From Planctomycetota bacterium (GTDB lineage Bacteria > Planctomycetota > Brocadiia > Brocadiales > Bathyanammoxibiaceae): DNA of 64,000 nucleotides. This document shows, one piece after another, positions 46,929 through 51,048 of this stretch. How positions within the stretch are numbered: position 1 is the stretch's first letter; each line of letters begins with the position of its first letter. Position numbers and translations under genes: made by a program. Below the pieces are notes generated by a model. It did no database searches. It saw only the letters and a list, made by a program, of their open reading frames with translations, and was not told where the DNA came from. The DNA is taken from assembly GCA_016209685.1 (NCBI GenBank), contig JACQVQ010000012.1, positions 111,584-175,583 on the forward strand. Direction: 5' to 3'.

Positions 46929-48014
46929 TTAAGGTTTTTCTTCAACATGTACGATAACTTTCTCTTTTGCGCCCGATTTATTTGTGACCGTAATTTTTGC
47001 AGTCCCAACCGACTTGGCGGTAATCTCTATCGTATTATCATCCTTCTTTTCCGCTCCGGCAACCGCTGTATTTTCCGACTTAACGTCGTTAATGGGCTTA
47101 GCCTTATGCACCTCGATTTCTACTGTCGATGCAGGTTCAAGTGTTACTTCATATTCTTTGACTTCCACCTCTACTTTCCTCATCTCACCCCGGCCATTTG
47201 AAACAGTAATCTCCGTTTTCCCAGCCGTTTCCCCTGCCTTAATTGTTACTACATTACCATTTGCTTCTCCTGTTGCAACTTTAGGATCGTCTGAGACGGC
47301 ATCTGTTATCGGTCCGTTTTGGATTGCTATAACCTGTGTCACTAGCTTCGTACGTTGTTTAAGACTCACTGCATATGTATTAAGTCTTAGCTCATCAGGC
47401 CTAGCGCGTTCTCTTACTTCCCCAGTGGCCGCCTCAATATCTTCTTTGGTTGGGATTCTTGCGGCAAGGGCTTTTTCTACTAGCTTAAGGGATCCCACAA
47501 CACTAACGTACAATTCGGCACCGGGGCTAGTGAGCTCGCTATTTGAAACCTTGCCATGATAGTCTTTTGCAATTTTGTTGAAGTACTTTGCCTCTGCCTC
47601 CTCAATTAACTCAAGCCCGTCCACATAGGCATTTATACGCTCTTTGAGTTTAAAAAGGCCAAGGCCATCACCAGTGAAGAGGCTTGCAGCAGCAAGGCCT
47701 GCGGTGCCAATTGTTGACCCGCCTGTCGCCGCCAGGGTTGCCGCCGCAGTCGCCGTAGCAAGGGCAGTCACGCTTGAGGCATATGCGGCTATGGTGGAAA
47801 ACTGCATCTTTGCACGAAACATGTGCCGTAAATTGTTGCTGAATTCCAGGATGTCCTGGTCGGTAATTGAGTACTCCACACCGGGCTCTTTTATATTTTT
47901 AAGATACAGGTCATCTCCACGTATTTTTTGCTTGAAGTTGCCGCATCCTAAACTCCCGGTCAGGAGCACCAGTAGGATGGAGATATATCCGGTTGTAGCT
48001 CTCAATTTAAACAT
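46929..48014 (-). CDS. Lipoprotein with Ig-like (BIG-type) C-terminal domains
   Basis: A 361-residue lipoprotein with lipobox LTGSLGC (Cys about 24). An alanine/glycine-rich hydrophobic helix (about 76-113) may enter a membrane, and a helical middle follows. Two bacterial Ig-like repeats end the protein: one with GPITDAVSDDPKVATGEANG to TEITVSNGRGEMRKVEVEVK, and a final one ending TAKITVTNKSGAKEKVIVHV. The first repeat is closely related to the domain in the next gene (48110-48490), so the two are paralogous partners. Surface attachment is likely and ligand unknown. Confidence 0.75.
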   Translation of the reverse strand: MFKLRATTGYISILLVLLTGSLGCGNFKQKIRGDDLYLKNIKEPGVEYSITDQDILEFSNNLRHMFRAKMQFSTIAAYASSVTALATATAAATLAATGGSTIGTAGLAAASLFTGDGLGLFKLKERINAYVDGLELIEEAEAKYFNKIAKDYHGKVSNSELTSPGAELYVSVVGSLKLVEKALAARIPTKEDIEAATGEVRERARPDELRLNTYAVSLKQRTKLVTQVIAIQNGPITDAVSDDPKVATGEANGNVVTIKAGETAGKTEITVSNGRGEMRKVEVEVKEYEVTLEPASTVEIEVHKAKPINDVKSENTAVAGAEKKDDNTIEITAKSVGTAKITVTNKSGAKEKVIVHVEEKP

Positions 48015-48109
48015 GGCTGTTACCCATCTTAACGGTCAGGTAAGGTCTGTCGCCGGCCAAGATTCCACTTCTAACTTCCAGAACTTTAGCCCTTACCGGC
48101 AGGGCTAGA

Positions 48110-48490
48110 TTATTTAACTTCCACATTAATTTTCTTCTTCGTACCTTTCTGATTTGAAACAGTAATGCAGGTTTTACCAGGCGATATACCTGTAACACTT
48201 ATTAGCTCATACTTTGTACTTTCTTTTTTCTCTCCAGTGGCAATCTCTGGGTTTTCTGAAGCAATACCAGTTACTGGCCCGTTTTTGACTACCAAGATTT
48301 CTGCTACCTTACCTTTTCCTAGAGTCACTTCGTCTTTGGAAAGTACTATCTCATTTTCCGCACGGGCCTGGGCCCTTTCCACTACGCTAGGTCTATACAT
48401 GTACTGGTGTTTGAAGTCGCAACCTATCTGTGGCAGTGATAGGACAATTAGCCCAACCCAAAGTTTGGCCATACTTCTTAGGCTGTACAT
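48110..48490 (-). CDS. Short lipoprotein with one Ig-like domain
   Basis: A 126-residue lipoprotein. ATG 48490 is chosen (AGGAAA upstream), and the lipobox is LSLPQIGC (Cys about 24). A single Ig-like domain fills the C-terminal half (VLVVKNGPVTGIASENPEIA, CITVSNQKGTKKKINVEV) and matches the first repeat of the larger neighbour. It is transcribed ahead of that gene with a 95-bp gap. Function is unknown. Confidence 0.72.
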   Translation of the reverse strand: MYSLRSMAKLWVGLIVLSLPQIGCDFKHQYMYRPSVVERAQARAENEIVLSKDEVTLGKGKVAEILVVKNGPVTGIASENPEIATGEKKESTKYELISVTGISPGKTCITVSNQKGTKKKINVEVK

Positions 48491-48979
48491 GTAAATTTCC
48501 TGGTTATGGATGGTGAGAAGCCGTGTTCTGATGGTCGCAAGGTACAGACTTTTTGAAAGGTGCCTGAGTGGCATAGGAGGACTGTTTTGATGTCGTGTTG
48601 CAACAAGGCACCAACAGGTTACTGAGTTACTTTGTTGCTCCGAAAGTTAGTCCCTAAAGCAGTGCCGGCATGGAGGAATTATTAAACTTGCAGACCCCCT
48701 CTTCCCCTTTGGAACACCTGTCCACGAACCCCCGCTAGGGTCCACCGGACTTATCCCCATGCCGTTCTTAGCAGGCGTTATTTATCACGAGTTGGGGGTG
48801 ATGTCAATAAAATTTTTTAATAATTGAAGGGTTTTTTTGCTGAGAAAGAAGGCGGTTGGGATGGGGCACGTCCACCTTTTTACATCGCTTTCTTGTGCCT
48901 GTCGGAGGGTAAATCTTCGTGGTTGTTTTCTCGCCATAGGCAAATCCGCCTATGGCGTGAGAGGAACGTACTTTCTATT
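48491..48979. other. 490-bp gene-free region
   Basis: No convincing gene on either strand. It holds the likely promoter of the short lipoprotein gene, a candidate structured RNA (48666-48764), an A/T-rich T-run stretch (48808-48838) and a perfect GCCATAGGC / GCCTATGGC hairpin at 48933-48956 just past the miaB stop, which may serve as its terminator. Confidence 0.6.
48666..48764. ncRNA. Candidate structured RNA closed by an 8-bp stem
   Basis: CGGCATGG (48666-48673) is complementary to CCATGCCG (48757-48764). The enclosed 80 or so bases hold further short hairpins such as GTCC/GGAC and ACCC/GGGT. No known RNA family is recognised and the strand is undecided. Confidence 0.25.
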
Positions 48980-50293
48980 TTAAGCAACAAGACGTCCAAA
49001 GAGGGTAAGCGAGGTGACCTCTTCTATCTTTACCTTTACCAACTCCCCCTTAATGGTACTGGGTCCCTCAAAGACTACTATCTGATTCTGTGGGGTGCGG
49101 CCAGTGAGCCTCTTTTTATTTGATTTACTGGGTCCTTCTACCAATACCTCCACTATCTGCCCGACCCTCTTCTTGTTTTCCTCAAGGCTTATATGGGATT
49201 GTACGTCCAGTAACCTCTGGTTCCTCTCTTTTTTTAACTCCAGGGGGACGTTGTCCAGGAGTTCTGACGCCTTTGTGCCCGGCCTTGGGGAGTATTTGAA
49301 GACATAGGAGTTCTGGAAGCGGGCGGCCTCCATCAACCTGACCGTAGCCTCAAAGTCCTCCTCCGTCTCCCCCGGAAAGCCAACGATGAAGTCGCTTGCT
49401 ATAGCAATGTCTGGCACCAGTTTCCTGGCAAGTCTTATCAGTTCCAGATAATGCTGGGCCGTATGACCCCTTTCCATCCCCTCCAGGATGCGGTCCGAGC
49501 CGGATTGGGCTGGCATGTGGAGGTGCTTACAGACCCTGGGCAATTCTGCCATGGCCTCCAGTACCTCTATTGTCATGTCCTTGGGGTGGGAGGTAACAAA
49601 GCGTATGCGTTCAAGCCCCTCTACCTTGCTAACGGCCCTCAGCAGGGTGGCGAGGTTAGTGCCCTTCTCCAGGGTTTTACCATAAGTATTTATGTTTTGT
49701 CCCAGGAGGGTAATCTCTTTACAGCCCTCATTGACAAGAGATTGGGCCTCCTCTACTATCTCCTCTACTGTCCTGCTTATCTCAGGGCCTCTTACGTGGG
49801 GGACTATGCAGTAACTGCAGTAATTGTCACACCCCCGCATGACTGTTATATATGCCTGGTGGGGATTCTCCCTGGGGGGACGCCGTCTGGGGTAGCTCAC
49901 CACCTTCTCGTCTGATACGGCCAGGAGGTGTCCACCGTTACTACCCAGCCTCTCCAGGAGTTCGGGGAGCTTATCAAACATCCTTGTCCCGCAGACCATA
50001 TCCACGTGGGGGTATCTGCGGAAGATTTCTTCCCCCTCCTTCTGGGCCACACAGCCCAGGACGCCTATCACAAGGTCTGGCCTCCGGGTCTTGCGGGCCT
50101 TCAGTTGAGACAGGCGGGAATAGACCCTGTCCTCTGCACGTTGGCGGACACTGCAGGTGTTGAAGAGGACGACGTCGGCGGCGGACTCATCCCCGGCAAG
50201 CCGATAGCCCCTCTCCAGTAGCAGTCCCAGGGACAGCTCCGAATCCGCCTTATTCATCTGACAACCAAAGGTGGTAAGGAAGACGGATTTCAT
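48980..50293 (-). CDS. miaB: MiaB, tRNA-2-methylthio-N6-dimethylallyladenosine synthase
   Basis: MiaB is a radical-SAM methylthiotransferase acting on A37 of tRNAs. The 437 residues contain the N-terminal UPF0004 domain with three conserved cysteines (FGCQMN, NTCSVRQ, GCVAQ), the radical SAM motif CDNYCSYC and a C-terminal TRAM domain. ATG 50293 directly follows the stop of the DUF2283 gene with no intervening base. A partial copy of its first 16 codons lies at about 50808-50854 on the other side of the cassette, encoding MKSIFLTTFGCQMNKA. Confidence 0.96.
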   Translation of the reverse strand: MKSVFLTTFGCQMNKADSELSLGLLLERGYRLAGDESAADVVLFNTCSVRQRAEDRVYSRLSQLKARKTRRPDLVIGVLGCVAQKEGEEIFRRYPHVDMVCGTRMFDKLPELLERLGSNGGHLLAVSDEKVVSYPRRRPPRENPHQAYITVMRGCDNYCSYCIVPHVRGPEISRTVEEIVEEAQSLVNEGCKEITLLGQNINTYGKTLEKGTNLATLLRAVSKVEGLERIRFVTSHPKDMTIEVLEAMAELPRVCKHLHMPAQSGSDRILEGMERGHTAQHYLELIRLARKLVPDIAIASDFIVGFPGETEEDFEATVRLMEAARFQNSYVFKYSPRPGTKASELLDNVPLELKKERNQRLLDVQSHISLEENKKRVGQIVEVLVEGPSKSNKKRLTGRTPQNQIVVFEGPSTIKGELVKVKIEEVTSLTLFGRLVA

Positions 50294-50566
50294 CTACGTC
50301 TTACCTGTTGCAAAGATTTTTGTAATCTCTTCACATACAATTTCCCTTAAGGCTGGCAGATTAAATTTGTCTGCCAACGAGGAGAGTAATCCAGGGGCCT
50401 CATCAAAGTTGAGTATTTCTATACCCAAAAGACACCCGTCTTTGTCCAGGTCAATGAAATTCTCTTCCCCTATTTCCTCGGTACTGGCCACCTCTCCTTC
50501 TTTTATCCGGATGTAGGCGGCAATTACTTCTTTCTTTTCATCATCAGTCTGGATTTCTACTCTCAT
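50294..50566 (-). CDS. DUF2283 small protein (predicted antitoxin)
   Basis: A 90-residue protein with the DUF2283 pattern AAYIRIKEGEV, then IDLDKDGCLLGIEILNFDEA. DUF2283 genes commonly sit beside DUF4258 genes in predicted toxin-antitoxin pairs, as here. The last 85 bp are exactly repeated at 50855-50939. ATG 50566 has GAGGG upstream, and the gene abuts miaB without a gap, so it may drive miaB translation by coupling. Confidence 0.8.
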   Translation of the reverse strand: MRVEIQTDDEKKEVIAAYIRIKEGEVASTEEIGEENFIDLDKDGCLLGIEILNFDEAPGLLSSLADKFNLPALREIVCEEITKIFATGKT

Positions 50567-50575
50567 ATTGACCCT

Positions 50576-50797
50576 CTATTTAGGATAAACCGTTACGACC
50601 AAGAGGTGGTCTACGTATTCTTCATATATAACATGAATAACTCTACCTTCAAGAAGTTTTATTGCCCTCTTACGCCCTAGACGGGCTGGCAAGACCTGGT
50701 CAGGATTAGCTAATATCTCACTCATTTGTGCTTTGGTTACTTTTCTTTCCTTCAGTTTCTGTACAGCATGGCCCAGGTACCTTACCTCTTTTGCCAC
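50576..50797 (-). CDS. DUF4258 small protein (predicted RelE-like toxin)
   Basis: A 73-residue protein with the DUF4258 layout: YLGHAVQKLKERKVTKAQMS at the N-terminus and RVIHVIYEEYVDHLLVVTVY at the C-terminus, a compact RelE/BrnT-like fold predicted to act on RNA. GTG 50797 immediately follows the stop of the truncated miaB copy (TAAGTG). It precedes DUF2283 by 9 bp. Toxicity is inferred from family context only. Confidence 0.78.
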   Translation of the reverse strand: MAKEVRYLGHAVQKLKERKVTKAQMSEILANPDQVLPARLGRKRAIKLLEGRVIHVIYEEYVDHLLVVTVYPK

Positions 50798-50800
50798 TTA

Positions 50801-50939
50801 TGTCCTTGCCTTATTCATCTGACAGCCAAAGGTGGTGAGGAAGATGGATTTCATCTACGTCTTACCTGTTGCAAAGATTTTTGTAATCTCTTCACATACA
50901 ATTTCCCTTAAGGCTGGCAGATTAAATTTGTCTGCCAAC
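50801..50939 (-). pseudogene. Duplicated DUF2283 3' end plus miaB 5' end
   Basis: 50808-50939 repeats 50247-50378 (132 bp, 561 bp apart) with three mismatches, all in the miaB part. On the minus strand it reads the last 27 DUF2283 codons, the stop, then MKSIFLTTFGCQMNKART and a stop at 50799-50801. Upstream of 50940 the similarity ceases. Confidence 0.93.
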
Positions 50940-51048
50940 ATGGATTTTTTCATATTTCTTGTGCTACAACCAAATGGGTGCGTCAAGATGCACACTACAC
51001 TACTCCTATGGTGTGTAGCGGGGTTGTATTCCATACTGTCTTGCCTTC

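Follow-up and report, generated by a model that had tools for sequence, protein, structure and literature searches.

The window, i.e., the whole stretch of 64,000 nucleotides that was analyzed, contains a 132-bp direct repeat at the start of miaB. Its two copies (50247-50378 and 50808-50939) are spaced 561 bp apart and are 97.7% identical (129/132, 3 mismatches). A repeat search of the window recovered the same pair within slightly wider limits (50247-50383 and 50808-50944, 96% over 137 nt, spacing 561). On the minus strand, each copy comprises the last 27 codons and the stop codon of a DUF2283 gene, followed by codons 1-16 of miaB. The DUF2283 tail is the same in both copies, and all three mismatches fall within the miaB part, where the upstream stub and the gene start agree at 45 of 48 positions. 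The minus-strand order is DUF2283 tail, miaB-start stub, DUF4258, DUF2283, and intact miaB, with the following features:

50855..50939, minus strand: duplicate of the DUF2283 tail (its final 27 codons and stop), same as the gene's own tail and not present in the relative G006
50798..50854, minus strand: miaB-start stub, an 18-codon ORF reading MKSIFLTTFGCQMNKART and then stop, of which about the first 16 codons are from miaB
50576..50797, minus strand: DUF4258 (PF14076), predicted toxin of the RelE/ParE fold, 73 aa (Pfam 36.6 bits, AlphaFold2, Foldseek)
50294..50566, minus strand: DUF2283 (PF10049), predicted antitoxin partner, 90 aa (Pfam 41.1 bits)
50247..50293, minus strand: miaB start copy belonging to the intact gene (repeat search)
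48980..50293, minus strand: intact miaB (tRNA methylthiotransferase), 437 aa (Pfam UPF0004/Radical_SAM/TRAM)

The Pfam cut-offs are 25 bits for DUF4258 and 23 bits for DUF2283. The preliminary description of the locus was accurate in these respects: the 132-bp repeat of DUF2283 tail and miaB start that it reported is exact to the base, its minus-strand layout and 561-bp unit are borne out by the ORFs, the repeat search, and Pfam, and the alignment confirms an identical DUF2283 part beside a miaB part with three changes. The flanking-repeat score at the locus is 123; since random intervals reach a best score of at least 20 in 0.8% of trials, a chance origin of the repeat is excluded. The stop codon of the stub abuts the GTG start codon of DUF4258 in the same frame, and DUF4258 is probably translated by coupling from the stub. 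Elsewhere in the window (46929-48574), two neighboring minus-strand genes each show weak Big_2/pilus N-terminal domain matches.

The pair as a predicted toxin-antitoxin module

The AlphaFold2 model of the DUF4258 protein (pLDDT 91.8) consists of two helices followed by a β sheet. Its best Foldseek matches in the PDB are the toxins RelE, ParE, and YafQ, with probabilities of 0.94-1.00, E values of 0.03-0.1, and TM-scores by query of approximately 0.5-0.66. The protein thus combines the Pfam match and the predicted RelE/ParE fold that characterize a DUF4258 type II toxin. In a published survey (PMC11980606), DUF4258 appears among the type II toxin families, with its activity given as unknown, and fusions of DUF4258 to MqsA are reported. 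The present pair resembles the RelE/ParE (BECR-fold) toxins of this family in its PF14076 match, its predicted fold, and its small two-gene module, whereas the order in the survey is antitoxin/toxin and here the toxin comes first with DUF2283 as its partner. At pheT in this genome, the partner of DUF4258 in the cassette reads as a YgiT/MqsA-like zinc-finger protein. For the miaB pair, the position of DUF2283 and its co-occurrence with DUF4258 suggest that it is the antitoxin, and DUF4258 may well be toxic and the pair mobile. PADLOC and NCBIfam returned no match for either protein, and a sequence search of solved structures gave nothing credible for them. No DNA match was found in plasmids, no protein match to DUF4258 in plasmids or phages, and no matches in viral contigs.

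Age of the two repeat parts at miaB

A search of the genome collection yielded one match, G006 (JAHFOV010000004.1, Planctomycetota bacterium isolate nzgw511), which belongs to another genus than this genome. It carries DUF4258-DUF2283-miaB with an in-frame miaB-start stub (MTRSVFLTTFGCQMNKTKT and then stop) before DUF4258, and here the stop codon of the stub abuts a TTG start codon. The homology extends from the stub through the end of miaB (79.4% over 1862 bp), while the neighboring genes differ, and G006 has no DUF2283 tail upstream of the stub. Therefore, the stub is the older element and the tail the more recent one. A single tandem duplication of an ancestral DUF4258-DUF2283-miaB arrangement was dropped as an explanation, since G006 has the stub without the tail.

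Substitution counts point in the same direction. Between this genome and G006, the DUF2283 tail differs at 23 of 83 positions and the miaB start at 3 of 47; within this genome, the tail copies show 0 differences and the miaB-start copies show 3. Because these two sets of differences clash, the 132 bp are unlikely to share one age (p approximately 0.002, or 0.05 if rates were equal, by our own estimate from the rates). With G006 as the outgroup, two of the changes are assigned to miaB of this genome and one to the stub. The preliminary description had proposed repeated entry or tandem duplication at the miaB start, which is essentially right, but the two parts of the repeat differ in age. The stub shared with G006 is well supported, by sequence comparison, as the mark of an older insertion at the miaB start that is common to both genera, and the second DUF2283-tail copy (50855..50939) appears to be a young partial tandem copy from an event in this genome only.

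The preliminary description had also named relatives with miaB and DUF2283 separated as evidence against it; G006 keeps the two together. The 561-bp unit, which it proposed to seek in relatives, occurs once in this genome, and G006 has the DUF4258-DUF2283-miaB block with no tail. MiaB shares 84% protein identity with that of G006 and 68% with that of G007. The latter genome has miaB without the pair, as expected before insertion, and does not refute the earlier reading; its miaB neighborhood is unlike that of this genome. No empty miaB site with matching flanks was found in these genomes; the gene order differs in both, and G006 is also occupied. A close miaB was not found in two genomes of the same genus, G001 and G002 (one of them only 77% complete), owing to loss or to incomplete assembly.

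Copied gene ends around other DUF4258 loci

To place the miaB locus in context, 141 DUF4258 loci were surveyed in genomes of the order, most of which are draft assemblies. Flanking direct repeats were present at 44 of them, compared with 10 of 182 control intervals (Fisher p = 8e-10), and repeats containing the end of a long ORF at 17/141 versus 3/182 (p = 1e-4). A translated repeat search gave 40/141 versus 9/262. The control rate is, if anything, overstated, because two of the ten control matches represent additional DUF4258 insertions within the same locus (L195). The loci are not all independent: pheT and lpxD each contribute loci from two genomes. L055 and L214 designate a single locus. 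No repeat was detectable at 69% of the DUF4258 loci; of the repeats that were detected, roughly half fall where no clear long ORF is present. L078, a tandem array, was discounted, as were L075 and several stop-rich repeats, which look like dispersed intergenic sequence and not like gene ends. Among other toxin loci of the order (L279-L308 and L249-L278), those of ParE behaved alike (8/29) and those of PIN more weakly (5/28); the pattern may not be specific to DUF4258. Planctomycete loci outside the order had such repeats in 3 of 21 cases. At L312 and L315, also from outside the order, DUF4258 adjoins copied 3' ends whose sequences resemble methionine aminopeptidase and a carboxyltransferase.

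In this genome (G000) and its relatives, DUF4258 pairs have a conserved gene on one side and a duplicate of its end on the other. The target genes, named from our reading of the sequences, include the following:

lpxD, 3' end copied, in G000 and G001: DUF4258 pair between the copies
pheT, 3' end copied, in G000 and G002: DUF4258 pair between the copies
fur, 3' end copied, in G000 (L077, G000:C14; repeats 1029-1074 and 1811-1856): around DUF2283
JAMM-like gene, 5' end copied, in G004: DUF4258 pair between the copies
ileS, 5' end copied, in G009 (L043, G009:C215): on both sides of DUF4258-DUF2283, the pair running opposite to ileS

At the fur site, the DUF4258 partner of DUF2283 looks decayed. 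Long gene-end copies of approximately 320, 430, and 256 bp also surround DUF4258 at L184, L122, and L141, in genes that read like enoyl-CoA hydratase, glycosyltransferase, and methylisocitrate lyase, respectively. The duplicated segment measures approximately 45 bp at miaB, 73-76 bp at JAMM, 94 bp at pheT, 41 bp at lpxD, and up to 436 bp elsewhere. At the 3' sites L171, L223, L195 (second site), L214, L141, and L158, with identity between the gene-end copies reaching 99%, the repeat extends 1-4 nt past the stop codon; in some other 3' cases, it continues for a further 20-60 nt. In the 5' cases (miaB, ileS, and L234), it begins at or beside the start codon. Junctions read by eye showed no common motif.

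Three of these sites have an empty counterpart. In G006, pheT runs into its downstream neighbor, so that the insert can be placed at L062 1400-2034 with a 68-bp flank overlap. The empty lpxD site lies in G002, of the same genus, with a 39-bp flank overlap. At the third site, cysK is followed directly by JAMM in G008 (72-bp flank overlap) and in G003, whereas G004 has the pair and a JAMM stub in between. At the empty lpxD site (L099, G002:C5), the native 3' end is read in another frame, with the C-terminus ...EEATPGPAKEATPDARDPEEDNPGLKGKRAY. The cassettes at lpxD in G000 and at JAMM in G004 are 84% identical over 439 bp, which is just the two ORFs, and their flanks are unrelated. Because the similarity stops at the two ORFs, the ORF pair appears to be the unit that moved.

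Origin of the cassettes and relation to known systems

Quite probably, the DUF4258-DUF2283 pair is a small mobile cassette that inserted ancestrally at the miaB start and underwent a later tandem event in this genome. The cassette would have entered the 5' end of miaB in the common ancestor of this genome and G006, duplicating approximately 45 bp of the miaB start; the upstream copy would have become the stub, and the other would have preserved the intact gene. Subsequently, and only in the present genome, unequal recombination between the direct repeats may have added a second 561-bp unit upstream, most of which would then have been deleted, leaving the DUF2283 tail before the old stub. Crossing over with later deletion would be the simplest path for this second event, but the tail copy could instead have come from gene conversion.

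The 3' ends of pheT and lpxD bear on how such cassettes might travel. At pheT (L062 1332-2128, G000:C3, and L085, G002:C336), different DUF4258 pairs occupy the same site, each with its own last pheT codons, and another copy of the end is displaced downstream. The two pheT genes are 94.3% identical over 300 nt upstream, but identity falls to 64.5% across the final 21 codons of the intact gene. The displaced end of G000 is 76% like both the displaced end of G002 and the native end of G006, and the rest of the gene is 79.6% identical to that of G006. The same contrast exists at lpxD in G000 (L070 1148-1923, G000:C11:14.2 kb) and G001 (L035), where the 3' end has been replaced and the native end lies downstream of the pair: the displaced end of G000 is 75-82% like native relatives and the intact end 61-63%. 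The displaced native lpxD end is an ORF starting MEEKRLQALLKKLPEM, 89% identical between G000 and G001 over 57 nt, and possibly a retained small ORF. Judging from these comparisons, the incoming cassette at both sites seems to have brought its own gene end along.

These observations have suggested a more specific mechanism, an address-label model, which we hold only tentatively. The cassette would be a toxin pair with a gene-end copy, excised between direct repeats; homologous recombination would insert it into the genome of another cell at the end of the same gene, where the incoming end replaces the native end and displaces it. The native-like displaced ends, the exchanged pairs at pheT, and the halt of the repeats so close to the stop codon at the 3' sites listed above are consistent with it. 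However, only two sites test the model, with approximately 60 nt each; at miaB, the two copies resemble each other too closely for native and incoming ends to be distinguished. No circular form was seen, and the model offers no account of how a cassette would first acquire a new gene end. With the same reserve, toxin-antitoxin pairs of Planctomycetota might be recombinase-free address-label cassettes, exchangeable at each site and multiplied in tandem through their repeats as at miaB.

The remaining explanations fare less well. That the pair was an ancestral neighbor of miaB and was simply duplicated in tandem with the miaB start, the upstream copy then decaying, would fit the window layout alone. 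This is unlikely, since the stub is common to G006 and the tail is young; moreover, relatives have empty sites elsewhere without the pair, and duplication of an existing neighbor gives none. The targeting of gene ends, with the end of the gene regenerated, recalls integrase attachment sites, and the resemblance would suit the remnant of an integrase-type island that has lost everything except its toxin pair. Such an origin is very improbable: the inserts that were read measure approximately 0.6-0.8 kb and hold the pair only, no recombinase gene lies between the repeats, the target genes are many and different, and the duplicated segment varies in length. An assembly artifact, which the identity of the 84-bp tail in both copies might suggest, can practically be discarded given the three stub differences, the unique junctions on both sides, the 362-kb contig, and the independent occurrence of the stub in G006. 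An insertion sequence or transposon was also rejected, as there is no ORF between the repeats other than the pair and no inverted repeats flank the cassette.

The recurrence of a DUF4258 pair with a copied end of the neighboring gene at many genes in the group points to a general route by which such pairs settle without breaking their hosts. It bears on the question of how toxin-antitoxin pairs reach the chromosome when no transposase or integrase is involved. Sequence comparison can test this question, because the genomes contain dozens of candidate insertions that vary in age, along with vacant sites, exchanged cassettes, and repeat limits at start or stop codons. If the address-label model were true, the spread of selfish pairs would leave housekeeping genes (pheT, ileS, lpxD, and miaB) unbroken and rewrite their ends. 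Our literature search, with most subscription journals outside its reach, found no report of such insertion for toxin-antitoxin pairs.

Integrative elements such as SXT, which inserts at prfC, enter gene ends and restore them. The cassettes are similar in that the host gene is kept whole and the copied end lies on the other side, but they have no integrase, are approximately 0.6 kb in size, and use many targets with repeats of variable length. A closer parallel is insertion with long target duplication, which was described in Helicobacter pylori, where the inserted genes are those of restriction-modification systems (Nobusato et al. 2000, Gene 259:99, as summarized in PMC3874152, PMC3031569, and PMC1643837). 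As far as these summaries describe it, both involve a compact set of genes between long direct copies of the target that vary in length (on the order of 100 bp), with no mobile element attached and a single target copy in relatives. Indeed, long target repeats of variable length surround the inserts studied here, and one-copy relatives with the same flanks exist at pheT, lpxD, and JAMM. Such direct repeats also permit tandem amplification by apparent unequal crossing over (PMC3031569), which corresponds to the second event proposed at miaB. Relative to the summarized cases, the cargo here is toxin-antitoxin pairs of Planctomycetota instead of restriction-modification genes, the copied stretch frequently corresponds to the extreme end of a conserved gene, and the intact end looks foreign at two sites. 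Collectively, the cassettes work like insertion with long target duplication but are not a member of that class, because their cargo is DUF4258 with DUF2283 or another partner.
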